This document shows positions 24,730 to 49,723 of a stretch of DNA of 64,000 bases, piece after piece; position 1 is the stretch's first letter; every line of letters begins with the position of its first letter. The stretch is taken from positions 81,154 to 145,153 of the forward strand of contig JAEKKN010000028.1 in assembly GCA_019510305.1 (NCBI GenBank), in the 5' to 3' direction. Origin of the DNA: Microbacterium sp. (GTDB lineage Bacteria > Actinomycetota > Actinomycetes > Actinomycetales > Microbacteriaceae). The notes under the pieces were generated by a model that was not told the origin of the DNA, did not search any database, and worked only from the letters and a program-made list of their open reading frames with translations. Made by a program: the position numbers and the translations under genes.

Positions 24730-25295
24730 CGTCCCTCCGCACCGGGCCTGACGCGCGAGACAGATGCGCCTGGGTCGGCGACGACGCGGAGTACCGGCGC
24801 TACCACGATGAGGAGTGGGGAACCCCGTTGCACGGCAACAGGGCGCTGTTCGAGAAGATGGCGCTCGAGGGCTTCCAGGCGGGGCTCAGCTGGATCACGA
24901 TCCTGCGCAAGCGCCCGCGGTTCCGAGCGGTGTTCGCGGGCTTCGACCCCGAGATCGTCGCGGAGTTCGGAGAGGGCGACGTCGAGCGCCTGATGGCGGA
25001 TGCCGGCATCATCCGCAACCGCGCCAAGATCGAGGCCACGATCGGCAATGCGCGCCTCGTGCGCGAGATGGCCGAGGGCGAGCTCGACGAGCTGATGTGG
25101 TCGTTCGCGCCGCCCGCATCCGGCATCCGCCCTCGCAGCATGGCCGACGTGCCGGCCGTCACGCCGGAGTCGACCGCGATGAGCAAGGAGCTGCGCCGAC
25201 GGGGGTTCCGATTCGTCGGCGCGACCACGATGTACGCGCTCATGCAGTCGGCAGGCATGGTCGACGACCACATCGAGGGATGCTGGCGAACCTGA
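24726..25295 (+). CDS. tag: DNA-3-methyladenine glycosylase I
   Basis: A 189-aa base-excision repair enzyme that removes 3-methyladenine from alkylated DNA. It has the full Tag signature: zinc ligands RCAWVG and [10 protein letters not shown] near the N-terminus and DHIEGC near the C-terminus, plus [22 protein letters not shown], which frames the base-binding pocket (Glu and Trp). [13 protein letters not shown] is the helical DNA-contact region. The ATG overlaps the preceding alcohol dehydrogenase stop. The C-terminus is short (CWRT) but complete for actinobacterial members. Confidence 0.96.
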
Positions 25296-25323
25296 GCGCC
25301 GAAAGGCGACCCCTGACCACAGA

Positions 25324-25341
25324 TATAATCCCCGTTGGGGG
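25324..25341 (+). promoter_or_regulatory. Perfect TATAAT box of the kinase-giant protein operon
   Basis: TATAAT at 25324-25329 is an exact consensus and striking in DNA of this GC content. No good -35 is found 16-18 nt upstream. The short inverted repeat CCCC-GTT-GGGG follows at 25330-25340, at about the expected transcription start. The leader to the GTG is about 60 nt. This would drive the eight genes from 25,399 to 41,020. Confidence 0.55.
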
Positions 25342-25398
25342 AACTGCGCTATCGGGTCGATGCGCCTCTCGCCGTGAACGAACTCGAGGGGAATCGCA

Positions 25399-26526
25399 GT
25401 GGCCAAGCGCACCATGTCGGCACCACCGGTGCTCGCCGGGTACAGCTATGTGCGCCCGCTGGGCTCCGGCGGCTTCGCCGACGTCTTCCTGTACGAGCAG
25501 GACCTGCCTCGCCGCGTAGCCGCCGTCAAGGTGCTGCTGGCGGATGCCGTCAACCCCGAGGTGCTGCGCAACTTCAACGTCGAGGCCGACATCTCGGCCC
25601 GGCTCAGCGCGCATCCGGCGATCGTGACGATCTACCAGGCCTCGATCTCGTCCGACGGCCGGCCGTACATCGCCATGGAGTACTGCCCCGACAACATGGG
25701 CACCCGGTACAAGAAAGGCCCGCTGCCCGTCGCCGAGGTGCTCGACGCAGGCGTGCGCATCGCGGGCGCCCTCGAGACCGTGCACCGCGCCGGACTCCTG
25801 CACCGCGACATCAAGCCGTCGAACGTCCTGATGAGCTCGCTGGGCTCGCCCGTGCTCGCGGACTTCGGCATCGCCGCCGCGGTCGTCGACGAAGGCGACC
25901 CCGAGATCATCGCCATGTCGGTTCCGTGGAGCGCACCCGAAGTGCTGCAGGAGCGGGTCTCCGGCTCGGTGGCCAGCGAGGTGTGGAGCCTCGCCGCCAC
26001 GTTGTACACGCTGTTCGCGGGTCGCACGCCCTTCGAGAGCGACGACCGCTCCGCGAACTCGCGCGCACAGCTCACCAAGCGCATCGTCAAAGCGCACTAC
26101 ACCCCGGTGCCGGTTCCCGGCTTCCCGCGCGCGATCGACGACGTGCTGTCGACGGCCATGCAGCGCGACCCGTCTCGCCGTTTCTCGTCCATGGCCGAGT
26201 TCGCCGAGCGGCTGCGCTGGGCGCAGTACGACCTGGGCGCCGCCCCCACGGCCTTCGAAGCGGCCTCTGCCGAGTGGGCCGCCGCCGCGCCGGTCAACTT
26301 CTCGGACGCCGCACCCCGCGGCCCGGTCGTGACCACCGTCGACGAAGGCGGGCGCCGAGCGGTGCGCGCCGCCCGTCAAGACCGCGGGCCACGTGAACGC
26401 GACGAGCTGCCGGCGCCGTCCAGGCAGCGCTCGCCGCTCGCCGCGGGCCTCATCGGCGCCGGAGTCGGCATGGCGGTGCTCGCCGTCGTGGGGGTCGCCG
26501 TGCTCATGATGACGGGGGTGATCTGA
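25399..26526 (+). CDS. Membrane-anchored Ser/Thr protein kinase
   Basis: A 375-aa Hanks-type kinase, first gene of the operon. The glycine loop is PLGSGGFADVF, the ATP-lysine is Lys44 (VAAVKVLL), the catalytic loop is HRDIKPSNV with Asp137, and DFG is at Asp155. The region after residue 275 is a flexible basic linker, then one membrane helix (LAAGLIGAGVGMAVLAVVG) five or so residues from the end. It has no extracellular PASTA or other sensor, unlike PknB. The sensing part may therefore be the giant protein encoded next, whose ATG overlaps the kinase stop by one nt. GTG start with GAGGGGA six nt upstream. Confidence 0.93.
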   Translation: MAKRTMSAPPVLAGYSYVRPLGSGGFADVFLYEQDLPRRVAAVKVLLADAVNPEVLRNFNVEADISARLSAHPAIVTIYQASISSDGRPYIAMEYCPDNMGTRYKKGPLPVAEVLDAGVRIAGALETVHRAGLLHRDIKPSNVLMSSLGSPVLADFGIAAAVVDEGDPEIIAMSVPWSAPEVLQERVSGSVASEVWSLAATLYTLFAGRTPFESDDRSANSRAQLTKRIVKAHYTPVPVPGFPRAIDDVLSTAMQRDPSRRFSSMAEFAERLRWAQYDLGAAPTAFEAASAEWAAAAPVNFSDAAPRGPVVTTVDEGGRRAVRAARQDRGPRERDELPAPSRQRSPLAAGLIGAGVGMAVLAVVGVAVLMMTGVI

Positions 26527-29500
26527 TGCCGATCGGCGATCGTGCAGTCACCGAGACGCGGCCCCGTTCGCGCAGCCGCGTCATCGCGGCCGTCGCCGGA
26601 CTCGCGTCGCTCGCGGCCGTCGTCACGTTCGCGGTCACCGCCCAGGGATACCAGGCGCAGGAGGTTCCGCGCCTGGAGTCGTCGGTATGGGTCATGCGCG
26701 ACTCCGGTCAGTACGCACGCGTGAACACCGATCTCGCCGAGATCGACACGGTGCGCGATGTCGATTCCCCCGAGCACGTGTGGCAGAGCGGGGCGGATGC
26801 CGTGCTCTTCAGCCAGGGCTCCCGCCAGCGCTGGGATCTCGATCCTGCCGATCCGCAGGACCTCCTCTCCGACTCTGGCGAGGAGGGCGCGCCGCTCGCC
26901 TCGCAGCCCACTCCGGTCGGCACCCGCGAGATCGTCTCGGCCGGCTCCTACGTCGCCTATCGCACCGACACGGGTCAGGTCTCGGTGACGACTCTCGAGG
27001 CGAAGGCCGCCACCGCCCTCGTCGACCCGTTCGCCGAGGTCGAGGTGAAGAAGGGCGAAGAGAAGCCCACCTACACGGCCGACGCGATCGGGCTCTCGCC
27101 CGACGGCATCCTGGCGCTGTACTCGTCCGAGGAGTCGGCCGTCCGCCGCTTCGACGTCACCGAGCATCGTTTCATCGGCGACGGCGACAAGATCTCCTCC
27201 GCACCCAAGAGCACCGCAGGCCTCGCCATGACCGTGGTCGGCGATACCTGGGCCCTTCTGCAGCTCGACAAGAGCAGGCTCTGGCTCTCCGGCCGCGGCG
27301 ATCCCGTCAGCGTCGACCTCGGCGAGGGCGCGCTGCTGCAGAGCGGCGCCTCGTCCGGCGACGAGATCCTGATCGCCGATGCCGACGGGCTCGTCTCCGT
27401 TCCGCTGTCGGGCGGCAAGGCGACGCGCATCGCCGAGGCGAACGGCGTTCCCGCAGCTCCCGTCGTGATGAACGGGTACGCCTTCGCCGCCTGGATCGAC
27501 ACCGGCTCCGGAACCCTGTGGGCCGACGGCGACACGGTCCCGCTGACGGTGCCGGACGCCGCACTCGAGTCCTCAGCCATTCGGCCGGTGCTGCAGACCA
27601 ACGGCGACCGCACCGTGCTCGTCGAAGCGGGAACCGGCCTGATCTGGACCGCGCCCGAGGGCCGTCTCATCCCGCTCGAGCAGTGGGCCATCGAGGACGA
27701 GACCGAACAGCAGGAGGGCACGGTCGTCGTCGAGGACGTCGCCGAGGAGCTCCCGCCAGTGGCGGTCGACGACTCCTTCGGAGTGCGCAGCGGCCAGCAG
27801 GTGATCCTTCCCGTGCTGTTCAACGACCACGACCCGAACAAGAAGGACGTGCTCACGATCGACCCGGCGTCGGTCGGGGCGGTGGCGGATGCCGGCTTCG
27901 GCGACCTGTCGCTCGTCGGCAACGGGCAGTCGCTCGTCGTGAACGTGCGTGCGGCGTCAGGGCAGACGAGCTTCACCTACACGGTGACCGACGGAGCGGC
28001 GGTCTCCGAGCCGGCGACCGTGACCCTCACCGTGGTGAGCCCCGACGTGAACTCCGCCCCGGTGTGGTGCGGAATCGAAGCGTGCCAGCAGGAGTGGCCA
28101 GCGCCTCAGCTGCTTCCCGGTGGCAGCACGATCGTCTCGGCGCTCGCGGGCTGGGTCGATCCCGAGGGCGACCCGTTCGTCCTCAGCGACGCCTACGAGA
28201 CCGACTCCGCGGCACCCGTGATGGTCGTGCCGATGGCTGACGGGCGCGTGGCGATCCGCCACACCGATCCGAACGCCTCCGACGCCGCGATCGCGATCAC
28301 GATCATCGTGCAGGACTCGCACGGCGCCACAGCCGAGAAGACCATCGAAGTGCGCGTCACCGGCAGCCCGACGATGGTGGCGGCTCCCGTCGCCCTCACC
28401 GTGCGCATCGATGAGCCCCAGTCGATCGACATCGCCGACCACCTCTCCGGCGGATCCGGCACGTACCGTCTGCTCGACGCCGTGCAGACCGCTGCGGCCG
28501 CCGAGGGACTCGAGGTGTCGCCGAACACCGCTGCGGGCACGGTCGACGTCACGGTCGCCGTACCGGGCCAGTACATCGTCACCTACACCGCGCAGGACGT
28601 CACGACGCAGGCCGAGAAATCGGCCGTGATCCGCATCACGGCGGTGGACGGCTCGTCGGCTCTGGCCATGGCGCCGCTCACGGCGTTCGTGCGCGAGGGC
28701 GAGGACACCACGGTCGACGTGCTGCGAGCCGTGCAGAACACCAGCGGACGCGTGCTGATCATCTCGGAGGCGTCGAGCTCGACGTCGCGCCTCAACGTCG
28801 GCATCGTCGGCAACGAGAGCATCCGCGTGAGCGGCACGACCGAGAACGGCGAGTCGGGAGTGATCGGCACGGCCGGTGTCACGGTCGCCGACGGCGCAGG
28901 CGCCGCGGTGAAGGGCACAGTGACGGTCTTCCTCGCGCCGCCGTCATCCGTCACACGTCCGATCATCTTCCCCGATGCGATCACCGTGCGGGCCGGCTCC
29001 CTCGCGCGCATCGACGTCGCTGCGAACGACGTCGCCCCGCGCGGCGAGGCGCTCATCGTGCAGCCCGAGGTCATCGGTTCGGGCCAGCCCGATGAGCTGG
29101 TCTTCGCCGACGGCAACAGCCTGCGCTATCTCGCCCCCAGCACGCCTGGCACCTACCGCCTCACCTACGCCGTGTCGCTCGAGCGCAATCCCTCGCTCTC
29201 CGACAACGGAACGGTCACCGTGACGGTCGTTCCGCCCGGGACCAACCGCGCACCCACGCCCACCGGTCTCACCGGTCGCGTGCTCAGCGGGCAGACCGTC
29301 ACGCTCACGGTGCCGACGACCGGGATGGATGCAGATGGCGACAGCGTCGTGCTGTCGGACGTCGCCCAGCCGGGCAAGGGACAGGGAACCGCCACCGTCA
29401 CCGCCGCCGGCGACGCGATCGTGTACCGCGCGCCCGCTGCGGGCGTCGAGGGCGGCCAGGTGGCGTTCAGCTACACGGTTCGCGACCCCGGGGGCGAAGA

Positions 29501-32438
29501 GGGCACGGGGCAGGTGCGCATCGGCGTGCTCGACGGCAAGGTCGACGACGCGGCTCCCGTGACCTACAGCGACTACGTACGGGTGCAGGCCGGTTCGTCG
29601 ACGCCCGTCATCCTCGACCCGCGTGCCAACGACCTCGACCCGGCCCAGGGCGACCTCGAGCTGATCGAGCTCGTGCCGAACGCGCCGCAGGTCGAAGGCA
29701 ACCCCGACTTCGAGCGGCTGAAGGCGCTCATCGACGACAGCACCTCGCTCGACGACGGCAGGGTCGTGCTGCGGGCGGGTGAGACCGAAGGCACGAACTC
29801 GTACATCTACACCGTGCGCTCGACCCGCACGCAGAGCACCTCGCAGGGCCTCGTCGTGGTCACGGTCACCGAAGACGCCGTGACCGACCAGCCCACTGTC
29901 GCCGACACCGTTCTCACCGCCCGCACCAGGGGAGAGCTGAGCGACGGCGGTCTCGACGTCGTCACCGATCGGGTGCAGTGGACCTCGGGCGACACCGGGT
30001 CGCTCCGGCTCAGCCTGTGGGGCGAGCAGCCGGGCTTCACCGTGAACGGCAGCCGTATCGTCGGTGAAGCGCCCGCGGAGGGCGCTCTGATCCCGTTCCA
30101 GCTGACCGGCACGGCCGAAGGCGGTCGAGACGTGGTCGCCTACGGCTTCCTGCGCATCCCGCCGTTCGACGATCTGCGCGTGCAGCTGAAGCCGGGGGTC
30201 ACTCCCGTCGTGGTCGACGAGGAGAAGTCCAAGGCGTTCGACGTGATCGACTACCTCGACCTCCCCTCGTCCGACCGGGTTGAGCTCGCGACCGGGGAGT
30301 TCACCGTGCAGCGCGCCGCCGCAGGCTGCACCGCGGAGGGAAAGCTGTCGGTCGAGTACTCGGCGGGCGCCGACGCGCCCTGGTCCGACACCTGTCTCGT
30401 GCAGGTGCGGCTGCAGGGCCAGCAGCGCTGGTCGTACGTCGAGGTGCCGATCGGCATCCGCCCAGCCGCCCCGCAGGTCGTGCTCACCTCGATCTCGCAC
30501 ACCGTGGCGCCGGGTGAGACCGAGACCGTCGACCTGTACTCGACCATGACCTCCTGGGAGGGCGGTCGCGAAGGCGACCCGAAATCCCTCGACTTCGGCG
30601 TCGTCTACACCGGCTCCTCCTTCACGGTCACGCAGAACGGCTCGTCGGTGTCGATCCTCGCGAACGCCGATGCGAAGCCGGGCACGCGTGAAGACGTGGA
30701 TGTGACCCTGACCGCCTTCGGCGGAGCCTCTGCATCCCTGCGCGTCGTCGTCGGGATCGCACCGCCCGACGCTCCCCGCGGCGCGACGCTGACGCGTCAG
30801 TGCGTCGTGACGAGCGCGAACTGCTCGATCGAGGTCGTCGGCGTGGCCGGCGAGTACGACCCGTTCCAGGGCAAGCCGGGGGCCGGCCTCACTCTGGTCT
30901 CGCTCGGCGAGGGCTCGCGCTGCGACGTCGCGACCGCCTCCGCATCGGGAGAGAGCGCGATCTCGGTGAGCTGGCCCGGTGGCGGCAAGGCGCCCGGCGG
31001 TCAGTGCATCTTCCCGTTCGTCGTCGCGGATGCGCAGGATCGCACAGGCGCCGGGTCCCTCACGCTCGATCTGCAGGGTTATCCGCAGGCGCCAGCCAGC
31101 GTGACGACTGTCGGCTACACGCGGACCACGGTCGTTCTGGAGGTGCCGCTCGGTGAAGCCGCGAACGCGCACCCCGCCGTCACCTCGGTGACGATCATGC
31201 AGGACGGCGCCCCCGCGAACGCCTCGTGCTCGGCGTCCGGCGCCGTGTACCAGTGCACCGTGAGCGGACTCGTCACCGGCGCGCCGCACAGCTTCACCGC
31301 GGTCGCCGTGAACTCCGTGGGTGCCTCGGCGCCCACCTCGGCGCACACGAGCTGGGCATATGCGCCCCCCGAGGTGACGAACGTCACCGCGACTCCCGTC
31401 TATCGCCCCGGCGTCACCGATACCACGCGGGGCGTCGCGGCCCTGTCGATCACGTCGTCGAACGACGCGGCGTCGTTCCGCGTGCAGGAGACCGGCGAGA
31501 TCATCCAGCGTCAGGGGCCGACGACCACGGCAGACATCGTGCTGAGCCCCGGCGGCCAGTCGGTCACGATCGTGCCGATCAGCCAGTTCCAGCCGCCCGC
31601 GGGCAACATCGGCAACGAGGGCGGCGCCTTCCCCGTCTCCGTGCAGGTCGCTGGCGCTCCCTACTTCGACCCGCGGTCGCCGAGCGCGCAACCCGTGTCG
31701 AACACGTCGGTCAACGTCTCGGGGATCGCCGCACAGAGCAACGGCAGCACGCAGCCGCTCAACGTGGTCTACGTCGCATGGCGATCGGGGAACGTGACCT
31801 GCTCGGACAACGGCAGCGGCGGACTGACTGTCAGCGGCGGCGTGACGTCGAACTCTCCGTCGATCGGCGGTCTCGAGCAGTACAAGCGCTACAACGTGAA
31901 GGCCTGCGTGTCGAACGGCTTCGGCGTCGGCGAGTCGAACACGACCACCGTGTTCACCTTCACCTCGGTCAGCGGCCCCGGCGGCAACACCACGTACTCC
32001 GTGGCGACCTCTCCGCAGCAGAACGGCAGCACGTACACCTACGGGCTGGCCTCGGCGCCCTCGCCGACGGTCGAGGCGGAATTCACGCCGTGGTACCTGC
32101 TGTACGGCACCTGGCGCACCGATTTCACCCTCTCGTCGGACTCGGCACCGGGGCAGATCAGCGTTAAGGCGTGCAACAACTCCGAACCCGACAAATGCTC
32201 GGGGACGGCGCCGATCACGGCGGCCACCGCCCCCACCACCGTGAAGGTGACATTCGACGCCTGCCTGCCGCTGGTGGACCAGCAGAGCGCGGTGAACGTC
32301 TCGGCGGCCGCGAGCGGCTCGTACAGCTTCTCAAGGACCGCCGTTCCCGACACGATCGGCGTCTACGACGTGAAGATCGACTTCACCGGCGCCTACAACA
32401 CCCTGTCGACCATCACACATCGGATGAACCTGTGCTGA
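26526..32438 (+). CDS. Giant membrane-anchored surface protein 1 (propeller-like head, Ig/cadherin-like and Fn3 repeats)
   Basis: A 1970-aa protein. A short basic cytoplasmic tail and one helix (VIAAVAGLASLAAVVTFAV) anchor it in the membrane. Residues about 50-390 form short W/G/D-rich beta units, probably a propeller. An acidic linker (EDETEQQEG) leads to PPVAVDDSFGVRSGQ, the first of many cadherin/Ig-like domains marked by LFNDHDP or similar Asp-rich, possibly calcium-binding turns. Fn3-like domains follow near the C-terminus. The tip (ISVKACNNSEPDKC, FDACLPLV, MNLC) holds four Cys. No sortase motif. Its place between the kinase and MoxR genes suggests a regulated surface filament. The architecture matches three paralogues further right, but sequence identity to them is visibly low. 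Confidence 0.85.
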   Translation: MPIGDRAVTETRPRSRSRVIAAVAGLASLAAVVTFAVTAQGYQAQEVPRLESSVWVMRDSGQYARVNTDLAEIDTVRDVDSPEHVWQSGADAVLFSQGSRQRWDLDPADPQDLLSDSGEEGAPLASQPTPVGTREIVSAGSYVAYRTDTGQVSVTTLEAKAATALVDPFAEVEVKKGEEKPTYTADAIGLSPDGILALYSSEESAVRRFDVTEHRFIGDGDKISSAPKSTAGLAMTVVGDTWALLQLDKSRLWLSGRGDPVSVDLGEGALLQSGASSGDEILIADADGLVSVPLSGGKATRIAEANGVPAAPVVMNGYAFAAWIDTGSGTLWADGDTVPLTVPDAALESSAIRPVLQTNGDRTVLVEAGTGLIWTAPEGRLIPLEQWAIEDETEQQEGTVVVEDVAEELPPVAVDDSFGVRSGQQVILPVLFNDHDPNKKDVLTIDPASVGAVADAGFGDLSLVGNGQSLVVNVRAASGQTSFTYTVTDGAAVSEPATVTLTVVSPDVNSAPVWCGIEACQQEWPAPQLLPGGSTIVSALAGWVDPEGDPFVLSDAYETDSAAPVMVVPMADGRVAIRHTDPNASDAAIAITIIVQDSHGATAEKTIEVRVTGSPTMVAAPVALTVRIDEPQSIDIADHLSGGSGTYRLLDAVQTAAAAEGLEVSPNTAAGTVDVTVAVPGQYIVTYTAQDVTTQAEKSAVIRITAVDGSSALAMAPLTAFVREGEDTTVDVLRAVQNTSGRVLIISEASSSTSRLNVGIVGNESIRVSGTTENGESGVIGTAGVTVADGAGAAVKGTVTVFLAPPSSVTRPIIFPDAITVRAGSLARIDVAANDVAPRGEALIVQPEVIGSGQPDELVFADGNSLRYLAPSTPGTYRLTYAVSLERNPSLSDNGTVTVTVVPPGTNRAPTPTGLTGRVLSGQTVTLTVPTTGMDADGDSVVLSDVAQPGKGQGTATVTAAGDAIVYRAPAAGVEGGQVAFSYTVRDPGGEEGTGQVRIGVLDGKVDDAAPVTYSDYVRVQAGSSTPVILDPRANDLDPAQGDLELIELVPNAPQVEGNPDFERLKALIDDSTSLDDGRVVLRAGETEGTNSYIYTVRSTRTQSTSQGLVVVTVTEDAVTDQPTVADTVLTARTRGELSDGGLDVVTDRVQWTSGDTGSLRLSLWGEQPGFTVNGSRIVGEAPAEGALIPFQLTGTAEGGRDVVAYGFLRIPPFDDLRVQLKPGVTPVVVDEEKSKAFDVIDYLDLPSSDRVELATGEFTVQRAAAGCTAEGKLSVEYSAGADAPWSDTCLVQVRLQGQQRWSYVEVPIGIRPAAPQVVLTSISHTVAPGETETVDLYSTMTSWEGGREGDPKSLDFGVVYTGSSFTVTQNGSSVSILANADAKPGTREDVDVTLTAFGGASASLRVVVGIAPPDAPRGATLTRQCVVTSANCSIEVVGVAGEYDPFQGKPGAGLTLVSLGEGSRCDVATASASGESAISVSWPGGGKAPGGQCIFPFVVADAQDRTGAGSLTLDLQGYPQAPASVTTVGYTRTTVVLEVPLGEAANAHPAVTSVTIMQDGAPANASCSASGAVYQCTVSGLVTGAPHSFTAVAVNSVGASAPTSAHTSWAYAPPEVTNVTATPVYRPGVTDTTRGVAALSITSSNDAASFRVQETGEIIQRQGPTTTADIVLSPGGQSVTIVPISQFQPPAGNIGNEGGAFPVSVQVAGAPYFDPRSPSAQPVSNTSVNVSGIAAQSNGSTQPLNVVYVAWRSGNVTCSDNGSGGLTVSGGVTSNSPSIGGLEQYKRYNVKACVSNGFGVGESNTTTVFTFTSVSGPGGNTTYSVATSPQQNGSTYTYGLASAPSPTVEAEFTPWYLLYGTWRTDFTLSSDSAPGQISVKACNNSEPDKCSGTAPITAATAPTTVKVTFDACLPLVDQQSAVNVSAAASGSYSFSRTAVPDTIGVYDVKIDFTGAYNTLSTITHRMNLC

Positions 32439-32475
32439 GCGCGCAGCATCCGATCCGAAAGGAAGCCCGGATCTC

Positions 32476-33441
32476 ATGACCATCGCGAAAGAGCAGGCGG
32501 CCTGGTTCGCCGAGACGTTCTCGATCCTCGCCGGCAACGTCGAGCAGGCCATCCTCGGCAAGCGCCACGTCGTCGAGCTGGTGCTCGCCGCGGCGGTGAC
32601 GGGCGGCCACGTGCTGCTCGAGGACTTCCCCGGCACCGGCAAGACCGCGCTCGCGCGGTCGATCGGGCAGACGATCGACGGCGTCAGCTCGCGCATCCAG
32701 TTCACGCCCGACCTGCTTCCCGGAGACGTCACCGGCATCACGGTGTACGACCAGAAGGAGGGCACCTTCGAGTTCCACGCGGGGCCGATCTTCGCCAACA
32801 TCGTGCTCGCCGACGAGATCAACCGCGCATCGCCGAAGACGCAGTCGGCGCTGCTGGAGGTCATGGAAGAGGGCACGGTCACGGTCGACGGCGTCTCGCG
32901 CCCCGTCGGATCGCCGTTCCTCGTGATGGCCACCCAGAACCCGATCGAGCAGGGCGGCACCTACCGCCTGCCCGAGGCGCAGCTCGACCGCTTCATGATC
33001 AAGACCTCGATCGGCTACCCCGACGACGCCGCGACCATGCGCATCCTGCAGGGGGCGGCGACCGTGAAGCCGCCGCTCAAGGGCATCGCCGGCACCGACA
33101 CGATCCTCACGATGGCCGAGATGGCCCGTGACGTGTACGTGAACCCGCTGATCTCCGACTACATCATGCGCATCGTCGACGCCACCCGTCGCGCCTCCGA
33201 GGTGCGCCTGGGCGTGAGCGTGCGCGGAGCCCTGGCGCTCTCGCGTCTCGTGATGACCTGGGCCGCGAAATCGGGTCGCACCTTCGTGACGCCCGACGAC
33301 GTGCGCGACCTCGCGGTCACAGCCCTCGCGCACCGCCTCGTCCTCGAGCCGGAGGCCGAGTTCGACGGCGTCACGGCCGTGGCCGTCGTGGGGCAGATCC
33401 TGCTCGACGTCGAACCGCCCCGTGAGAACGGGACTGCGTGA
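32476..33441 (+). CDS. MoxR family AAA+ ATPase (copy 1)
   Basis: A 321-aa AAA+ chaperone-like ATPase. Walker A is EDFPGTGKTALARS with Lys56, Walker B is [14 protein letters not shown] with Asp113, and sensor 1 is [20 protein letters not shown], all diagnostic for MoxR. RGALALSRLVMTWA is the C-terminal lid. MoxR proteins remodel or activate partner proteins, usually those encoded with DUF58/VWA genes. The downstream DUF58 gene overlaps by 4 nt (GTGA). It begins 37 nt after giant protein 1, with AAGGA as ribosome site. Confidence 0.95.
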   Translation: MTIAKEQAAWFAETFSILAGNVEQAILGKRHVVELVLAAAVTGGHVLLEDFPGTGKTALARSIGQTIDGVSSRIQFTPDLLPGDVTGITVYDQKEGTFEFHAGPIFANIVLADEINRASPKTQSALLEVMEEGTVTVDGVSRPVGSPFLVMATQNPIEQGGTYRLPEAQLDRFMIKTSIGYPDDAATMRILQGAATVKPPLKGIAGTDTILTMAEMARDVYVNPLISDYIMRIVDATRRASEVRLGVSVRGALALSRLVMTWAAKSGRTFVTPDDVRDLAVTALAHRLVLEPEAEFDGVTAVAVVGQILLDVEPPRENGTA

Positions 33442-34808
33442 GCTACAGCACCGAATCGCGTATCACGCGCACCGCCGCCGGGACGAGCACCTCGACCCGG
33501 ACGTCGACGGTGACGCGATACGACCGCACGCGCCGCGGACCGGTCCGCGGCGCGGTGTTCGGCACGCGCAGGATGCTGCGCCGTACCGGACGGATGCTTC
33601 GTCGCGTGTACGCCTGGATCGGCGAGACCGTCACCGCCGCAGGCGTCCTGGTCTCTGCGGCGCTGGTGCTGGGCCTGGTCTGCGGTCTGCTGTTCGGCTG
33701 GGTCGAGGCATGGGCGGTGGCGGCGATCGCCTTCGTGCTGCTCGTGGTCTGCATCCCGTTCATCCTCGGTGAGCACGACTACCGCATCGAACTCGCACTC
33801 GGCCGCGACCGCGTGGTCGCCGGCACCGACATCGGGGCCGTGCTCGACGTGCGCAACAACGGCTCGCGCCTCGCGCTGCCGGGCGTCGTCGACGTGCCGG
33901 TGGGCGAGGGGCTGGTCGAGGCGCACGTCCCGCTGCTGCGACCCGAAGGGCACCACCGCGAGGAGCTCACGATCGCGGCGCATCGCCGCGGCATCATCGA
34001 CGTGGGCCCTATGACCATCACGCGCGGCGACCCCATCGGCATCCTCCGCCGCGAGTTGAGCTGGCCCGAGGTGCAGCGCATCCACGTGCATCCGGTGACC
34101 GTCCGCATCCCCAGCACGAGCGCGGGGCTCATCCGCGATCTCGAAGGAACCCCGAGCTCGGTGCTCGTCGACGCCGACCTCTCGTTCCACGCCGTGCGGG
34201 AGTACGTGGTGGGCGACTCGCAGCGCCACGTGCACTGGAAGTCGACCGCCAAGACCGGCAAGCTCATGGTGCGGCAGTACGAGGAGTCGCGCCATGCGCG
34301 GATCGCGATCATCCTCGATCTCGCCGCGTCGTCGTACGACAGTGATGACGAGTTCGAGACGACCGTGAGCGCCGCGGCGTCTCTCGCCCTGCAGGGCGTC
34401 ACCGAGGGTCGCGACGTGCTGTTCGTCGTGAGCAACGAGATCCCCGAGCACGCACGAGCCGAGGTGCTGTCGATCAGCACGCTGCCGACCGTGACCCCGA
34501 AGGCGCTCCTGGACGCGACGAGCGGCGTCGACGCCGCCGACAACGTGATGCGCCTCGAATCCGTGACGAAGCTCACGGTCCAGTCCTACCCCGACCTGTC
34601 GATCGCGTTCCTGATGACGGGTTCGCTCATGCCTCTGGATCGCCTGAGGATGGCGGCGATCTCGCTGCCGGCCGCCGTGGAGGCGGTCGCCGTGCGCTCC
34701 GAGCTCGGCCAGGAGCCGACCCTGCGCAGCGCGCGGGAGCTCGTGGTGATGACGCTCGGCGCTCTCGGAGACCTGCCGCAGATGCTCGCTCGCGGAGTCC
34801 TGAAATGA
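33438..34808 (+). CDS. DUF58 membrane protein (copy 1)
   Basis: A 456-aa MoxR partner. The first 36 residues are an unusual Ser/Thr/Arg-rich cytoplasmic stretch (STSTRTSTVTRYDRTRRG), absent from the second copy and a possible phosphorylation target of the operon kinase. Two membrane helices follow (AAGVLVSAALVLGLVCGLLF; AVAAIAFVLLVVCIPFIL). The DUF58 core has the signature YVVGDSQRHVHWKSTAKTGKLMVRQYEES, followed by a von Willebrand A-like fold (IAIILDLAAS). The family is thought to form a membrane complex with MoxR and TgpA-type transglutaminases. The start GTG overlaps the MoxR stop; the ATG of the next gene overlaps this stop. Confidence 0.93.
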   Translation: MSYSTESRITRTAAGTSTSTRTSTVTRYDRTRRGPVRGAVFGTRRMLRRTGRMLRRVYAWIGETVTAAGVLVSAALVLGLVCGLLFGWVEAWAVAAIAFVLLVVCIPFILGEHDYRIELALGRDRVVAGTDIGAVLDVRNNGSRLALPGVVDVPVGEGLVEAHVPLLRPEGHHREELTIAAHRRGIIDVGPMTITRGDPIGILRRELSWPEVQRIHVHPVTVRIPSTSAGLIRDLEGTPSSVLVDADLSFHAVREYVVGDSQRHVHWKSTAKTGKLMVRQYEESRHARIAIILDLAASSYDSDDEFETTVSAAASLALQGVTEGRDVLFVVSNEIPEHARAEVLSISTLPTVTPKALLDATSGVDAADNVMRLESVTKLTVQSYPDLSIAFLMTGSLMPLDRLRMAAISLPAAVEAVAVRSELGQEPTLRSARELVVMTLGALGDLPQMLARGVLK

Positions 34809-37339
34809 GCGGCACGGCGGCTCGACGCGAGCAGGATTCTCTGTTCAGCGTGCTGAATCTGTGGGGCCTCGGTTACGTCTTCGCCGGCGTCGTGCTCGCG
34901 ACGCTCGCGGCCTGGCCCGTGTACGACGCGCCGCGCGCGATCGTCGTCGGCATCGTGGGAGGGCTCGTCGGCATCGCCGCGGCCGTCGTCGCCCGGGTGC
35001 TGCGCTGGGGCACGCTGCTCGCCGCGCTGCTCGCCGCGGTCGCCTATGTCGTCGTCGCCGTGCCGCTTGCCATCCCCTCCGCGCTGTCGTCGCCGGGCGC
35101 GTTCTTCGGCGGGCTGCGCGACGCCGTACTGGGCATCGTGCTGGGCTGGAAGCAGATCCTGACGCTGAATCCGCCGCTGGGCGAGTATCAGGCGGTGCTC
35201 ATCCCGTTCCTCGTCGTCGTGCTGTTCGGCGCCTTCATCGCGAGCCTTCTCGTGCTCGGCCGCAGCAGCAGGCGCTCCACGTTCGCCGTGATCGTGGTGT
35301 CGGCCATGAGCGTGTTCGGCATCGCGTTCGGCGCCACCGGCACCAGCGCCCCTGTGGTGCTGCTCGGGTTCACGCTTCCGTCTCCGCGCGAGTGGGTCAT
35401 CGGCGTCGCGGTCTTCGTCATCGCCCTGGTCTTCCTGGTCGGGGCGTCCCGCCTCCGGCGCGCGCGGGCGCTGCGCGCCGTCGCCGCGCACAACATCACG
35501 CGGCGGGCGGCGCCGGTGTGGCTCAGCATCCGCCGCCATCTGCTGTCGGGTGCGCTCATCGTCGTCGCGCTGGTGGCCGGTCTCGCGATCGCCCCCGCGG
35601 CAGCGGGCTGGCACGATCGCTCGGTGCTGCGCGACGAGGTCGAGCCGATGATCGTCGTGCAGCAGCAGTCGAGTCCTCTCAGCGAGTACCGGTCGTGGTT
35701 CACGGCCGAGCGCGCCGACGAGACCGTCGTGAAGATCGACGGCGACCCCGGTTCCATCGAACGCATCAGGATCGCGACCCTCGACGCCTACGACGGCCAG
35801 GACTTCCACATCGCCGCAGACGACCGATTCACCCGACTGCCGCGTGCCGCGGCCCCCGGCGATGGCCGAGTGCAGCTCGGCATCACGGTGGGCGACGCGT
35901 ACAGCGGGATCTGGGTGCCGACCCCATCGGGGCTCGCGCAGGCGCCCACGTTCTCGGGCTCGCGTGCCGACGAACTGGCCGACGGCTTCCACGTGGATGC
36001 CGACGGAGACACCGCGATCACGATCGCCGAGACCTCAGGCGCGGGAGCAGGCCTCGTGCCGGGCGACCGCTACAGCGTGCTCGTCGACGCCCCGGGCAAG
36101 CCCGTTTCTCTGACCGACGTGCAGGGAGGGGAGTCGCTGCTCGACGCCGATGATCATCCCGCCCTCGCGGAGTGGGCGGACATGCAGGAGCTTCCGCGCA
36201 CCGGAGCCGGTTTCCTGGAGCTGATCGAGAGGCTGCGCGCCCGCGGCTATCTCTCGCACGCGCTGCTCGACGACGAGGCGGCGGCGACGTGGATCGCCGC
36301 GCTGAAGTCGTCGGAGGGCTACTCGTTCGCCCCCAGCTACGCCGGACACTCCACGGCGCGGATCGAAGAGCTCTTCACATCGTTGGTCGAACAGCAGCGC
36401 AGGGCCGGCGCCGATGCGACGCCCGAGATGCTCGTGGCGGCCGTCGGCGACGACGAGCAGTTCGCCACCGCGGCCGCCCTGCTCGCACAGCTGTGGGGTC
36501 TCGAATCGCGCGTCGTCCTGGGCGCGCGCCTTCCCGCGGCTGATGAGGTGCCGGGTGTGCCCGCCTGCGACACCGAATGCACAGGGGCGAACATGACCGC
36601 CTGGGTCGAGGTGCGCGCGTCAGGCGGAGAATGGGCCGCGGTCGACGTCACCCCGCAGTACTCGCAGCTTCCGAGTCTGATCACGGAGGGCGAGCAGCTG
36701 CCCGAGCACCCGACGGTGCCCGAGCAGCCGCATTCGGAGGCTCTCGACCCGCCGCAGGCGCAGAGCGACTCGCATGACGGAGAGGTGCCGCCCGAGCCGG
36801 TCGCCTCCGACGCGCTCGCGGTCGTGCTGTTCATCGCGCGCATCGTCGGCCTCAGCCTGCTCGCGCTCGCTCTGCTGCTGCTTCCGCTGATCGTGGTGCT
36901 CGTGGTCAAGGGTCTGCGCAGCAAAGCTCGTCGCACCGCGACGGACCCGGAAGTGCGTCTGGTGGGAGCGTGGGAAGAGCTCACCGACGTGTATCTCGAC
37001 CACGAGATCCCGATCTCGACCGACGGCACCAGGGTGCAGAGCGCCCGCACCGTCGAGCGTCCCGCCGCAGAGCGTCTCGCACGAGCCGTCGACCAGGCCG
37101 TCTTCGCCGCGCATCCGCCCGGTGAGGATGACGCCGATCACGCCTGGAGCGTCGTCGACGAGGAACGCGAGGCGCTGCGCGCCGAGCAGAGCCGATGGGC
37201 CGCTCTGCGGTCACGGCTGCGCCTGAGGTCGTTCGTGGCCAGGATCGCGCCGACACGGAGGATCGCGTTCGGGAGCCGCCACCTGGCACTCGGTACGCTC
37301 GCATTGGCCGGTGCCCGCCGGCAGGAGGAGGACGCATGA
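34805..37339 (+). CDS. TgpA-like membrane protein with degenerate transglutaminase domain
   Basis: An 844-aa protein. Five to six N-terminal membrane helices (residues about 15-270), an extracellular transglutaminase-like domain (about 480-625), one more helix (AVVLFIARIVGLSLLALALL) and a cytoplasmic tail. The domain matches its family in order, but active enzymes have GDCEQFA and HAW: here the sequence is GDDEQFATAAALLAQLWGLE with Asp550 in place of Cys, and NMTAWVEV with Thr598 in place of His. Only the third position (Asp614 in AAVDVTPQ) remains. It is therefore probably non-catalytic, perhaps a binding or structural partner. Two nearby Cys (PACDTECTG) could form a disulfide. ATGA overlaps at both ends tie it into the operon. 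Confidence 0.88.
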   Translation: MSGTAARREQDSLFSVLNLWGLGYVFAGVVLATLAAWPVYDAPRAIVVGIVGGLVGIAAAVVARVLRWGTLLAALLAAVAYVVVAVPLAIPSALSSPGAFFGGLRDAVLGIVLGWKQILTLNPPLGEYQAVLIPFLVVVLFGAFIASLLVLGRSSRRSTFAVIVVSAMSVFGIAFGATGTSAPVVLLGFTLPSPREWVIGVAVFVIALVFLVGASRLRRARALRAVAAHNITRRAAPVWLSIRRHLLSGALIVVALVAGLAIAPAAAGWHDRSVLRDEVEPMIVVQQQSSPLSEYRSWFTAERADETVVKIDGDPGSIERIRIATLDAYDGQDFHIAADDRFTRLPRAAAPGDGRVQLGITVGDAYSGIWVPTPSGLAQAPTFSGSRADELADGFHVDADGDTAITIAETSGAGAGLVPGDRYSVLVDAPGKPVSLTDVQGGESLLDADDHPALAEWADMQELPRTGAGFLELIERLRARGYLSHALLDDEAAATWIAALKSSEGYSFAPSYAGHSTARIEELFTSLVEQQRRAGADATPEMLVAAVGDDEQFATAAALLAQLWGLESRVVLGARLPAADEVPGVPACDTECTGANMTAWVEVRASGGEWAAVDVTPQYSQLPSLITEGEQLPEHPTVPEQPHSEALDPPQAQSDSHDGEVPPEPVASDALAVVLFIARIVGLSLLALALLLLPLIVVLVVKGLRSKARRTATDPEVRLVGAWEELTDVYLDHEIPISTDGTRVQSARTVERPAAERLARAVDQAVFAAHPPGEDDADHAWSVVDEEREALRAEQSRWAALRSRLRLRSFVARIAPTRRIAFGSRHLALGTLALAGARRQEEDA

Positions 37340-39369
37340 TCGCGGTCGCAGACCCCAGGTTCCTGGCAGAGGTCACTGCCCCCGACCTCGTCGCGGCATC
37401 GGCCGTCGTCACTGGCGTGACCGCACTCATCGGGCTCGGCGTGTACGTCTGGTACGCGTTCGCCCTGTCGAAGCTCTTCCCGAAGCTCGAGCAGGACGCC
37501 TGGAAGGGTTGGGTTCCCGTTCTCAACGAGGCGACCATCCTGCAGATCGGCGGTCGGCCCGCCTGGAACGTCGTGTTCTATTTCATTCCGATCGTTCAGC
37601 TGTACGGTCTGTACCTCAAGGTTCTCGCGACCCACGACATCAACAAGCGGTTCGGCCGCGGTGCGGGATTCACCGTGCTCGCGGTGCTGCTGCCGCCGGT
37701 GTGGGCGACGCTGCTCGCGTGGGGCGCCCCGCCGTATCCCGAGGGCGACCGGCTCGCAGGCCTGCACGGTCCTCGTCGGGTGGGAACGGATGCTGCGCGC
37801 GCCGCCGGTGCGCCCTCAGGCCAGGGCTTCCTCGCCGCGCCGATCCCGCATGCGGGCGCCGCTCCTGGTCCCGCATCCTTCGCACCCGCTCCGGGCTCTT
37901 TCGCACCGGCGCAGCCCGCGGCGCCGGGCGCATTCGCCCCGCAGGGCTTCGTTCCGCAGCCACCGGCACCGGGATCCGGTCCGGCGGCCTACGTCGATCC
38001 GAGGTATTCGGATGCCGCTGCGCCTGATGTGACCATCCCGGCGCTGAACCGCACGAGCGCCTCGACGGTCGATGCGGCCACCGGGCTTCCGTCTCCCGCC
38101 TTCGAGCAGCCGGCTCCCCCGCAGCCGGCGCCTCTGCCCATTTCGCAGGGCCTGATCGACTCCGTGCCCGGCGTCGCCCCCCACGAGCCGTCCGCAACGG
38201 TCGAGGCCGAGCCGCAGAAGCCCGTCGTGCCGGTGGAGCCTGCTGCTCCGGCGGCGCCGGTGGGGCCTGTGCAGCCCGTCGAGCCCAGCGTGCCGTATCA
38301 GCCGGTGGAACCGTCTCAGCCGGCCCCGCCTCCTGCGCCGGTTCAGCCCGCCGAGCCGACGCCGCCCGTCTCGCCCGTGCAGCCGGTCGCTCCGCATGAT
38401 CCGTACTTCCCGGTTCCTGCTGAGCCTGCTCCTGCTGAGCCTGCTCCTGCCGAGCCGACCTGGCCGGCCTCGCCCGCGGCTCCGGCCCACCCGGCTCCCG
38501 CCGATCCGGCTCCGGCCCAGCCCGCCTGGCCTGCCCCGTTCGAGACTCCGGCGCCGCCCGCAGAGTCCGTCGCACCCGCTCAGCCGGTCGCGTCCGCCCA
38601 GCCGATCGCGCCGGCACAGCCGGTCGCACCCGCTGAGCCGGCTGGCGTCGCTCAGCCTGCCGATCCCGGCGCGACGCCGCCTCCCCCCGCGGCGCCGCAG
38701 CAGGAGCCGCTGGTATCCGCACCCATCCCGCCCGAATCACCGGCGGCCCCCGACGCGTCAGCTCCCTCGGCCGCTCTCGGGCCGGTCCCCTCCGCAGCCG
38801 AGGCGCCGGCATCCGCCGCTGAGGGCGCTCCCGAAGCCCCGGCATCCGATCCCTTCGCCGAGCCGCAGCGTCTTCGCGGCTCGGGCCTGGGAACCCGCGC
38901 CGACCGTGCGGCGTCGATCAAGCCCGTCCCGGTGGTGCTGCCGGTTCCCGAGCCCCAGGTTCCCGTCGCCGCGGCGGCGCCCGACCCCGCGACCGCTGAT
39001 GACGACATCGAGGCGACGGTCGTCGTGCATCGCAGCCGCGGTCCTCGTCGGGTGCTCGTTCTCGACGACGGGCGCACCTTCGCCCTCTCGGCGACGAGCA
39101 TCGTGATCGGCCGCAACCCCGAGGGCGAGCCGGGCGAGCAGCGTCTGTCGATCCCCGACAAGACGCGCACTCTGTCGAAGACTCACGCGCGTCTCGTCGT
39201 GCAGGGCGAAGAGTGGCGTCTCACCGACCTGCACTCGACCAACGGCGTCGTGGTCGTCGCCGATGACGGCGCCGAGACTCTGCTCGACGCCGGTGAGAGC
39301 GTGACCGGAGCCGGGCGGTTCGTGCTCGGTGAAGTCGGCATGCACGTCGCGGTGGAGTCCGGTTCGTGA
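37336..39369 (+). CDS. Membrane protein with DUF5684-like N-terminus, Pro-rich linker and FHA domain
   Basis: A 677-aa reader of phosphothreonine. The N-terminal 140 residues hold about three helices and the block DAWKGWVPVLNEATILQIGG, as in DUF5684. A very long Pro/Ala/Glu linker (about residues 150-550) follows. Before the FHA domain stands DDDIEATVVVHRSRGPRR with Thr561, the type of N-terminal TxV site that kinases modify in FHA proteins such as GarA. The FHA domain (about 575-677) has the conserved phospho-peptide residues: SIVIGRNPE, LSKTHARL and HSTNG. The ATG overlaps the previous stop. It should link the kinase, the PP2C phosphatase and the Thr-repeat protein encoded beside it. Confidence 0.92.
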   Translation: MIAVADPRFLAEVTAPDLVAASAVVTGVTALIGLGVYVWYAFALSKLFPKLEQDAWKGWVPVLNEATILQIGGRPAWNVVFYFIPIVQLYGLYLKVLATHDINKRFGRGAGFTVLAVLLPPVWATLLAWGAPPYPEGDRLAGLHGPRRVGTDAARAAGAPSGQGFLAAPIPHAGAAPGPASFAPAPGSFAPAQPAAPGAFAPQGFVPQPPAPGSGPAAYVDPRYSDAAAPDVTIPALNRTSASTVDAATGLPSPAFEQPAPPQPAPLPISQGLIDSVPGVAPHEPSATVEAEPQKPVVPVEPAAPAAPVGPVQPVEPSVPYQPVEPSQPAPPPAPVQPAEPTPPVSPVQPVAPHDPYFPVPAEPAPAEPAPAEPTWPASPAAPAHPAPADPAPAQPAWPAPFETPAPPAESVAPAQPVASAQPIAPAQPVAPAEPAGVAQPADPGATPPPPAAPQQEPLVSAPIPPESPAAPDASAPSAALGPVPSAAEAPASAAEGAPEAPASDPFAEPQRLRGSGLGTRADRAASIKPVPVVLPVPEPQVPVAAAAPDPATADDDIEATVVVHRSRGPRRVLVLDDGRTFALSATSIVIGRNPEGEPGEQRLSIPDKTRTLSKTHARLVVQGEEWRLTDLHSTNGVVVVADDGAETLLDAGESVTGAGRFVLGEVGMHVAVESGS

Positions 39370-40199
39370 CACTCGCCTCCGTCGTCCTCAACGTCGCAGC
39401 GCTCAGCGATCTCGGCTTGAAGCGCGCCGTCAACGAGGACTCGGTGTTCGCGGAGTCGCCAGTCTTCCTCGTCGCCGACGGCATGGGCGGGCACGCGGCA
39501 GGAGACAAGGCCAGCCAGGCCGTGGTCGCCGCATTCGCGCCGCTGGCAGGCACGCGGGTGTCGACGGCCGAGATCGGCGCCGCACTCGCCCGCGCGAACG
39601 AGGCGGTGTCGACGATCTCGGCCCAGCATTCGCGCGGCGCCGGGAGCACGGTCGCGGCCGTCGCCCTCGTCGAGTACGAGGAGGTGCCGCACTGGCTGGT
39701 GTTCAACGTCGGCGATTCGCGTGTCTATCGTCATCACGGCAACGAGCTCGAGCAGCTCACGATCGACCATTCGCTGGGTCAGGAGCTCGTCGACGCGGGC
39801 GAGCTGCGTGCTGAGGATCTCGCGACCTTCCCGCAGCGCAACGTCATCACACGGGCGATCGGCGCCGACGACAACATGGCCGACAGCTGGCTGGTGCCGG
39901 TCGTGAACGGCGAGCGGCTGCTCATCTGCTCCGACGGGCTGAGCGGCGAGGTCAGCGACGAGGGCATCAGGGCGACTCTGACCATGTGCGGACGTCCCGA
40001 GACCGCGGCTGCCGCCCTCGTGCGCCGGGCCAAGCAGGCGGGCGGGCGCGACAACATCTCGGTCGTCGTGGTCGACGTCGTCTCGGGCGGAATAGCGGGC
40101 GGTCTGCAGGACTCCACCGACAGCCGCCAGTCCTCCTCGGCGGTGCACACGTCGACCATGCTCGAAGGCACTACGGTCCCCGTGAGGAGGCGCGGCTGA
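39366..40199 (+). CDS. PP2C family Ser/Thr protein phosphatase
   Basis: A 277-aa cytoplasmic metal-dependent phosphatase. The metal-binding motifs are complete: NEDSVFAE, VADGMGGHAAG, NVGDSRVYRH, LLICSDGLSGEVSDEG and GGRDNISVVVVDV. After the catalytic domain is a tail ending TMLEGTTVPVRRRG, which repeats the acidic-Thr-Val-Arg pattern of its neighbours. It probably reverses the operon kinase. GTG start overlapping the FHA gene stop; its own stop overlaps the next ATG by one base. Confidence 0.95.
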   Translation: MTLASVVLNVAALSDLGLKRAVNEDSVFAESPVFLVADGMGGHAAGDKASQAVVAAFAPLAGTRVSTAEIGAALARANEAVSTISAQHSRGAGSTVAAVALVEYEEVPHWLVFNVGDSRVYRHHGNELEQLTIDHSLGQELVDAGELRAEDLATFPQRNVITRAIGADDNMADSWLVPVVNGERLLICSDGLSGEVSDEGIRATLTMCGRPETAAAALVRRAKQAGGRDNISVVVVDVVSGGIAGGLQDSTDSRQSSSAVHTSTMLEGTTVPVRRRG

Positions 40200-41020
40200 T
40201 GGACTCCGACGACGACATCCCCGAGGCGACGGTGAGACTCACCCGCCGCGTGCGTCGGCGCAGCCAGGCGGGCGAGGGGCCGATCCCAGCGGATGCCGGC
40301 ACCGAGGCCGTCGCAGGGGACGGCACCGACGAGAACGCGCCGATGGTCGAGGACCGCACCGTCGTGATGGGTCGACGCCGGCGTGCCGTGGATTTCGAGT
40401 CTGACGACGACCTCGACGAGGATTCGCCCCTGGTCGAGGACCGCACGGTGGTGATGGGTCGACGCCGGCGTGCCGTGGATTCCGAGTCGGGCGACGACGT
40501 CGACGAGGATTCGCCCCTGGTCGAGGATCACACCGTCGTGATGGGTCGTCGGCGTCGCGGCGGCGCAGACGATTCCGAGTCCGACGACGACCTCGATGAA
40601 CACACGCACATGATCGACGATCGCACCGTCGCGGTGGAGCGGCGGCGTCGACCAGATCTGACGGCTGACGAGGTTTCCGTCGAGGACCGCACGGTCGCGG
40701 TCGAGAGGCGCCGACGGACGGATGCTCCTCTGGAGCGCGCAGAGGACGACGAAGAGCTCTACGACACGGTGAGCCGTCCTCCGGCTGCCGACGTGGAGAA
40801 GCCCCCAGCCATCTACAAGCCTCGTGCAGCGCCGCGCACACCGCACCGTCCTCCTGCGTCTCCTGGAGACATCGCTCCGACCCGCGTGATCGACGCCGAC
40901 AGGGTCTCGGTGGCGAAGGCCGCACGCCGGCGCAGCCTGTATGCCGTCGCTGCCGTGTCGGGGGCCTGCGTCGTGTCGGTCGTCGGCCTGGTGCTCCTCG
41001 GATTCACCGTCCTCCTCTGA
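40199..41020 (+). CDS. Tail-anchored protein with five Thr-Val-Arg repeats
   Basis: A 273-aa protein with no family I recognise. The cytoplasmic part carries five copies of a 13-residue unit, VEDRTVVMGRRRR or the variant DRTVAVERRRR, with Thr at positions 54, 83, 112, 143 and 165. The units are separated by acidic Ser/Asp stretches that could take up further phosphates. EATVRLTRRVRRR near the N-terminus is a sixth, looser copy. A single helix at the extreme C-terminus (VSGACVVSVVGLVLLGF) makes it tail-anchored. Encoded after a kinase, an FHA protein and a phosphatase, it looks like a multivalent phospho-scaffold. This role is inferred. Last gene of the operon. Confidence 0.78.
   Translation: MDSDDDIPEATVRLTRRVRRRSQAGEGPIPADAGTEAVAGDGTDENAPMVEDRTVVMGRRRRAVDFESDDDLDEDSPLVEDRTVVMGRRRRAVDSESGDDVDEDSPLVEDHTVVMGRRRRGGADDSESDDDLDEHTHMIDDRTVAVERRRRPDLTADEVSVEDRTVAVERRRRTDAPLERAEDDEELYDTVSRPPAADVEKPPAIYKPRAAPRTPHRPPASPGDIAPTRVIDADRVSVAKAARRRSLYAVAAVSGACVVSVVGLVLLGFTVLL
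40346..40717 (+). repeat. Coding tandem repeat, five units
   Basis: Units of 39 nt start at 40346, 40433, 40520, 40613 and 40679. The first three are spaced exactly 87 nt and are almost identical in the motif; the last two are diverged. Loss or gain of 87-bp steps would keep the frame and change the number of Thr sites. Confidence 0.85.
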
Positions 41021-41120
41021 ATCGCGCTTCCTCTGAATCGCGGTCGGCGCGCGGGCCGAGGGAGGGTGCCCCGCGCCATAGCGTGAACGCTGAACCCGGT
41101 GCGTGAACGCTGAACCCGGT
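41014..41120. repeat. Short direct repeats at the operon end
   Basis: CCTCTGAATCGCG occurs at 41014-41026 and 41030-41042, and a 20-bp unit GCGTGAACGCTGAACCCGGT occurs at 41081-41100 and 41101-41120. They fill the 110-nt gap between the operon and the convergent HNH gene. No clear terminator hairpin was seen. Confidence 0.7.
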
Positions 41121-41130
41121 GCGTGATCGG

Positions 41131-49709: not shown

Positions 49710-49723
49710 ACGCCGTCACGAGC

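Follow-up and report, generated by a model that had tools for sequence, protein, structure and literature searches.

The window analysed here, a stretch of 64,000 nt from a contig of Microbacterium sp. (GCA_019510305.1, JAEKKN010000028.1), raises the question of what is achieved by an operon that combines a phospho-Thr circuit with a giant protein and a MoxR-DUF58-TgpA module. Positions 25399-41020 are occupied by eight open reading frames (ORFs) on the + strand, encoding in order a Ser/Thr kinase, the giant, a MoxR-family AAA+ ATPase, a DUF58 protein, a TgpA-like membrane protein, an FHA protein, a PP2C-type phosphatase, and a Thr-repeat protein. Judged by gene content and order, this is a PFNA-type operon of non-bifidobacterial actinobacteria and not a new kind of system; the initial annotation of this DNA had taken it to be novel, and it has already been published as PFNA in bifidobacteria. 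Four of its features look unreported in the open-access literature searched: the loss of the catalytic Cys from the TgpA-like protein, the repeat protein, a Thr motif in front of the FHA domain, and a kinase without an extracellular part. Gene order, the sharing of the motif, the loss of catalytic residues, and the positions of the transmembrane segments (TMs), assigned by hydropathy, are read directly from the sequence.

In Bifidobacterium, the PFNA operon is described as pkb2-fn3-aaa-atp-duf58-tgm; certain species also have prpC, a hypothetical gene, and fha (PMC8430577, PMC6803598, PMC10688814). The window matches it in the five core genes, which follow one another identically on a single strand, in the phosphatase and FHA genes that come after this core, and in its second gene, a giant of about 2,000 amino acids (aa), FN3 of B. 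longum being given as 1,994 aa in the same papers. The two differ in that the downstream order is fha-prpC-repeat rather than prpC-hypothetical-fha, and in that the window has the Thr-repeat protein where L043, a bifidobacterium-like locus standing in for B. longum, has an LRV_2 protein. In addition, the window kinase has no C-terminal signal region past its TM (6 residues). Finally, the PFNA operon is stated to be exclusive to bifidobacteria (PMC10688814), whereas the layout of the window, termed type A here, occurs outside them. The PFNA giant is described with two fn3 domains near its C-terminus; Pfam finds none in the focal giant (E≤1e-3) and does find fn3 in two scanned paralogous giants of the window. 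Relative to PFNA as published, type A brings in a new adaptor and a pseudoenzyme, and it is far more widely distributed. The hypothetical gene is described as accessory and found only in certain bifidobacteria (PMC8430577); it may correspond to a gene for an LRV repeat protein that follows the phosphatase in L043 (3349-3951; LRV_2 5e-40) and in a second bifidobacterium-like locus, L044 (14548-15327; recognised by eye). Within the open-access sources as available, descriptions of the operon are confined to the PFNA papers above, a further bifidobacterial paper (PMC12607495), and papers on ternary systems; PFNA is set beside the mycobacterial moxR1 operon in a review of 2025 (PMC12067865).

The type A layout was characterised in the best 80 of 281 relatives ranked by TgpA-like similarity, a set that describes this layout and not the whole family. 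Kinase, giant, MoxR, DUF58, and TgpA-like genes follow one another in order in 69 of the 70 named non-bifidobacterial loci with enough upstream sequence (TgpA-like ORF starting >8 kb into the locus; 70 of the 80), the other, L087, having no kinase match. Three loci in which the giant gene appears split into several ORFs, through sequencing errors or decay (L081, L101, and L110), were counted as having it. Downstream sequence of 4.5 kb or more is available for 62 loci: FHA was detected in 57 of them and PP2C in 55, and 61 have a tail-anchored repeat protein. The complete set of eight families was present in 45 of the 57 loci with enough sequence on both sides. The order is kept in Microbacterium, Leifsonia, Agromyces, Leucobacter, Demequina, Cryobacterium, and others, which supports the earlier reading of one conserved unit; the outcome named there as refuting it, no co-occurrence beyond close relatives, is not seen. 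The operon is common in genera best known from soil, water and plants. That it is spread through other actinobacteria points to an older role, intrinsic to the cell.

The TgpA-like protein was matched in 62 of 119 genomes of the order, in 28 of 56 genera. For the N-terminal region of the giant, 113 of the 119 genomes examined from the genus have a match; a sample of 246 genomes across the phylum gave 18, several of them weak. Giant, MoxR, DUF58, and TgpA-like genes are adjacent in four genomes placed outside the class and occur together in 34 of 40 loci from the order, counted by eye; the full core is absent where contigs end (L008, L009, and L033), and in L025 (no MoxR), L040 (no giant), and L046 (no giant and no TgpA-like gene). 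Also common in the order is another layout, type B, which runs giant-MoxR-DUF58-TgpA-FHA-PP2C, with the kinase last.

Two of the downstream proteins have a Thr motif in common, which gives new support to the phospho-Thr circuit proposed in the initial annotation. The FHA protein (37336-39369, 677 aa) consists of a DUF5684 membrane domain (Pfam 1.5e-14), a long Pro/Ala linker, and a C-terminal FHA domain (1e-6), with three hydrophobic segments; its start was taken as the ATG at 37336, which overlaps the preceding gene, and not the longer ORF start at 37195. It has one copy of the motif, DIEATVVVHRSR, the codon of T561 lying at 39016-39018. The Thr-repeat protein (40199-41020, 273 aa) has a TM at its C-terminal end, matches no Pfam or NCBIfam family, and has five copies of [VI]-[ED]-D-[RH]-T-V-[VA]-[MV]-[GE]-R-R-R at T54, T83, T112, T143, and T165, a stretch of 40358-40693 from the T54 codon to the T165 codon.

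An acidic-x-Thr-hydrophobic-hydrophobic motif is present in the 50 residues before the FHA core in 60 of 62 FHA proteins, against 9.1 expected by segment shuffling; these 62 come from type A and bifidobacterium-like loci, 95 loci having been examined, and in each the FHA signature is preceded by 130 residues or more. The segment and the pattern had been reset after a first run, in which the segment lay too near the FHA domain and cut the motifs (49 of 62, 6.6 expected, 15 with a basic residue); the segment was shifted, and Gln at +1 and Ser at +2 were allowed. Both misses, L075 and L083, read G-A-T-I-V-V, with no acidic residue in reach. The pre-FHA consensus is [LDF]-D-[RA]-T-V-V-V-x-R-[RK] and that of the repeat proteins D-[DE]-[ARE]-T-V-V-V-x-R, or in short form [DE]-x-T-V-V-x-x-R. 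Repeat proteins chosen by position and TM, 51 from the 80 loci in a first list, contain a mean of 3.94 motifs versus 0.45 when shuffled, with at least two in 47 and none in three. An Arg at +5, outside the search pattern, accompanies 58 of 60 pre-FHA motifs and 172 of 201 repeat-protein motifs. In a wider test on the 62 loci with enough downstream sequence, an ORF passed if it had a hydrophobic stretch at its C-terminus and carried two motifs or more under a looser pattern. This gave the 61 of 62 above; control ORFs passed in 6 of 62 cases on the opposite strand of the same region, 0 of 62 upstream, and 0 of 25 in operons of other layouts.

Of 17 FHA proteins from type B and other loci, 5 match the type A pattern, two of them bifidobacterium-like. 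However, an acidic residue followed by T-[RQ]-hydrophobic, read by eye, precedes the FHA domain in 13 of the 16 type B or other proteins that are not bifidobacterium-like, therefore the pre-FHA Thr is probably ancestral; the V-V...R flavour and the repeat protein go with the type A layout. Bifidobacterium-like pre-FHA sequences are WDSTVLSS in L043 and WDGTVLSS in L044, where the FHA gene is on the strand opposite the operon. The second operon of the present genome has EIEATRIS at this place; the type A and type B FHA proteins of this genome (the latter at L008 1699-3330) have E-A-T in common and differ at +1, V versus R, as if the circuits were kept apart.

There is a likeness to GarA (Rv1827), an intramolecular FHA switch reportedly described by Nott in 2009, in that the Thr motif stands just N-terminal to the FHA domain in the proteins of the operon. 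These differ from GarA in being membrane proteins with DUF5684 and a long linker, in the existence of a second protein with several copies of the motif, and in that their phosphorylation is predicted. In M. tuberculosis, Thr sites lost on PknA depletion are reported to have acidic residues at -1 and -3 to -6, Leu or Val at +3, and a basic residue at +4 (PMC7164672). The operon motif, with acidic residues before the Thr, a hydrophobic residue at +3, and a basic one at +5, resembles these sites.

The TgpA-like protein (34805-37339, 844 aa), a polytopic membrane protein, had been expected to be an active transglutaminase partner, but it has no catalytic Cys and, by its residues, is a pseudo-transglutaminase. 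Its Pfam match to Transglut_core is 1e-7. Since a search of the domain against PDB sequences gave only weak matches, taken as unrelated (best a DEP-domain protein, E 0.0016), a fold search was used: the model of the soluble domain (pLDDT 81.4) has TgpA as its top PDB matches in Foldseek (6g4h, E 1.1e-9; 6g49, E 1.3e-8), the next being at E 0.02. The triad positions read D550-T598-D614, not Cys-His-Asp. GxC and HAW, the catalytic motifs of the transglutaminase family, read GDD and TAW; the D550 codon (36452-36454) falls in GDDEQF where GxCxxF is expected, and the T598 codon (36596-36598) in TAWVEV where HAWVEV is expected. From an alignment of 139 rows, 19 were dropped for having no residue at the Cys position, and no Cys is found there in any of the remaining 120. 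This position is Asp in 80/80 named loci and, in the remaining 40 rows, one of Asp, Glu, Gly, Ala or Ser, with Ser in the three bifidobacterium-like members; the His column contains His in 0/80 named loci and in 9 of those 40. The residues at the Cys position are the ground for rejecting the enzyme as annotated, a catalytically active isopeptide cross-linker; the sequence leaves room for a chemistry unrelated to transglutaminase. Given the missing Cys, calling this subunit a 'transglutaminase' misleads for all members examined, the three bifidobacterium-like ones among them.

Four Transglut_core matches in the same genome served as controls. The two outside these operons retain both Cys and His: L128, with GYC, LHSW, and Glu replacing Asp, and L130, with GVC, SHAW, and YDPT. 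The two inside both lack the Cys, and the type B protein retains the His.

The remaining members of the module are the MoxR-family ATPase (32476-33441, 321 aa; Pfam AAA_3 2e-60, AAA_lid_2) and the DUF58 protein (33438-34808, 456 aa; Pfam DUF58 2e-11), which has an N-terminal membrane segment (TM 93-111). As in the MoxR-proper (MRP)-DUF58-TgpA/transglutaminase neighbourhood cited in PMC6803598, the three families are adjacent and the TgpA fold is present; here, however, the catalytic Cys and His are replaced and the module sits in a kinase/FHA/PP2C operon with a giant. The MoxR-vWA ternary conflict systems (PMC7159879) likewise have a MoxR AAA+ protein with partners and propellers nearby, and the window MoxR has a weak bpMoxR match (3e-10), but the propeller is predicted on the giant and not on a vWA protein. 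That paper contains 0 occurrences of DUF58 and reports propeller ternary systems mostly from other phyla. A ternary conflict system of the Kaur type was rejected, with no Pfam propeller in the DUF58 protein and a MoxR score of 203 bits for AAA_3 versus 40 bits for bpMoxR.

The giant (26526-32438, 1970 aa) looks like a membrane-anchored extracytoplasmic rod of predicted shape and exposure, and not a sortase-anchored fibre. It has one TM, at residues 19-37, and none at the C-terminus. Of the initial description as an Ig/Fn3 protein, the Ig part is borne out by a Big_9 stalk (Pfam 3.5e-25), while Pfam gives no fn3 match here (E≤1e-3). The N-terminal 425 aa, ahead of the Big_9 repeats, are modelled as all-beta with moderate confidence (pLDDT 74.7, pTM 0.73), and propellers such as BamB lead the Foldseek matches (TM-score ~0.4-0.5 to the query), suggesting a beta-propeller. 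From the 80 loci, 68 kinases scoring >400 and 68 giants >5.5 kb scoring >1500 were surveyed. In 0/68 giants was there a C-terminal TM or an LPXTG in the last 60 residues; a fibre anchored by sortase was rejected for want of LPXTG in all 68.

The reading somewhat favoured here is that a phospho-Thr switch on the cytoplasmic face clusters the FHA protein and regulates a MoxR-DUF58-pseudo-TgpA machine acting on the giant. Membrane segments are found in the kinase, giant, DUF58, TgpA-like, FHA, and repeat proteins, and the motif-bearing tail of the repeat protein is presumed to be cytoplasmic. The kinase and the PP2C-type phosphatase (39366-40199, 277 aa; Pfam PP2C_2 5e-10; Stp1_PP2C_phos 1e-55, at 188 bits under the cut-off of 230) would set the phosphorylation of one short Thr motif at the inner membrane face. 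The single pre-FHA copy would be a GarA-like self-ligand, and the copies on the repeat protein, about four in general and five in the window, a multivalent docking platform. Once phosphorylated, this platform would gather the membrane-bound FHA protein into a cluster, competing with the self-binding of that protein, and PP2C would dissolve the cluster. The cluster would adjoin and presumably regulate the MoxR-DUF58 AAA+ machine, coupled to the TgpA-fold protein, which without a catalytic Cys would be a non-enzymatic binding or scaffold subunit; the machine would then affect how the N-terminally anchored propeller/Ig giant matures, is placed or is turned over. An effect of the cluster on machine and giant is suggested by gene linkage and by the reported phosphorylation of the operon's own MoxR by Pkb2 in B. 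longum; in strain GT15 the operon is also reported to be co-transcribed (PMC8430577). If the FHA domain binds the phosphorylated repeat peptide and the kinase writes the motif, an uncharacterised operon becomes a defined signalling route.

Several points weigh against this reading. The sequence gives no physical link between the phospho-circuit and the giant, and in this layout we infer the cytoplasmic sidedness, the writing of the motif by the kinase, its reading by the FHA domain, and every step from cluster to giant. Motifs of FHA and repeat proteins from the same genome are only weakly more similar than permuted pairs (21.10 versus 20.12, standard deviation 0.54; 167 of 5000 permutations reach it; 31 genomes), a difference from which kinship is not removed. 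Mycobacterial motifs favour Pro at +2, which is absent from the operon motif. The window kinase has no Thr between DFG and APE, therefore its activation may differ from that of PknB. Lastly, in 11 of 62 loci there is no detected FHA or PP2C within 7.5 kb, or no repeat protein (one locus, L123), therefore not every part is indispensable. The overall interpretation of the initial annotation is partly supported; kinase control over how the giant is displayed or assembled is something we purely infer.

It is possible, though unlikely, that two modules merely occupy one transcription unit with no joint function, an envelope-homeostasis core of MoxR, DUF58, TgpA, and giant beside an unrelated kinase/FHA/PP2C circuit. 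Kinase position and accessory genes do vary, and in 2 of 6 further loci (L133 and L134, with about 5 kb downstream and little upstream) the core has no adjacent kinase, FHA, or PP2C match. However, the accessory genes stay linked to the core across many genera in at least three arrangements, and the operon's MoxR is reported as a substrate of Pkb2 in B. longum (PMC8430577).

A less probable explanation makes the giant a variable structure for surface recognition, or one exposed to phage, engaged in kin or phage interactions, with the rest of the operon serving its assembly and quality control. The PFNA genes are reported to be under episodic positive selection in bifidobacteria (PMC6803598), and giants occur as tandem paralogues, three in the window and, about 6.2 kb apart, two to four in other genomes of the genus, but the focal giant is alone in its own operon.

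The window kinase (25399-26526, 375 aa), Pkb2-like and with AVK, HRD, and DFG motifs (Pfam Pkinase 4e-40), has its catalytic domain followed by a single C-terminal TM (351-369). As in this protein, with 6 residues beyond the TM, at most 12 (median 6) are found there in 68/68 named type A kinases examined, versus 122-142 in three bifidobacterium-like kinases (L043-L045, the genus judged from layout); the type A kinases therefore have no domain of their own to read an outside ligand. That the operon is a host-signal receptor as proposed in bifidobacteria, the kinase sensing host ligands outside and the giant binding cytokines, is accordingly very improbable, the more so as the operon is common in genera best known from soil, water and plants and no fn3 is found by Pfam in the focal giant, even though a B. 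longum FN3 fragment is reported to bind TNF-alpha in vitro and TNF-alpha to raise expression of the operon (PMC8430577, PMC10688814).

A bolder form of the switch reading is tentative, and rather doubtful as a whole. In this form, the eighth gene would found a family of tail-anchored multivalent phospho-Thr scaffolds, and an inner-face cluster with the membrane FHA protein and a kinase without an outside domain would switch the MoxR-DUF58 machine. The pseudoenzyme TgpA-fold subunit would handle, not cross-link, the propeller-Ig giant, and the two paralogous operons would be insulated by their motif flavours, T-V-V with Arg at +5 versus T-R-I.

The second of these operons, of type B, begins in the window at 56015-64000 with a giant of 2032 aa (56015-62113), followed by a MoxR gene (62154-63125), whose product is 60% identical to the first, and a DUF58 gene cut by the contig end. 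Contig C13 (L008) ends in a DUF58 tail and then TgpA-like, FHA, and PP2C genes, and probably continues this operon. Ahead of it are two more giants in tandem (43631-55924), with DNA 73-77% identical to the intact one. Both are split into two ORFs, the gap at the break relative to the intact paralogue being 2 nt in one and 43 nt in the other; assembly error is possible. Tandem arrays of two to four giants about 6.2 kb apart, mostly full-length frames, were counted by eye in the genus: at least 12 of 119 genomes have them, among these the present one (others are, for example, G399, G460, G379, G469, G380, and G429), and it is possible that they are a store of surface variants.

The claim that the eight genes overlap except for one 37-nt gap is confirmed by ORF coordinates, junctions, and Pfam matches. 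Kinase and giant overlap by 1 nt, the gap lies between giant and MoxR, and the MoxR/DUF58, DUF58/TgpA-like, TgpA-like/FHA, and FHA/PP2C junctions overlap by 4 nt each; the repeat-protein gene starts at ATG 40199, 1 nt within the PP2C stop, with an in-frame CTG also there at 40196. The TATAAT hexamer at 25324, put forward as a promoter, is present, but a consensus scan of 25100-41200 gives no promoter-like site there or elsewhere in that range (0.5 expected by shuffling), which leaves that promoter unsupported, and no terminator-like site on the + strand. An ORF whose product has a methyladenine glycosylase domain lies upstream, likewise on the + strand, and ends at 25295, 103 nt before the kinase; the downstream neighbour is an opposite-strand ORF with a DUF222 match. 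The window is part of contig C7 and ends where that contig ends. The nearest named relative is Microbacterium hydrocarbonoxydans SA35, in which the TgpA-like protein is 89% identical.

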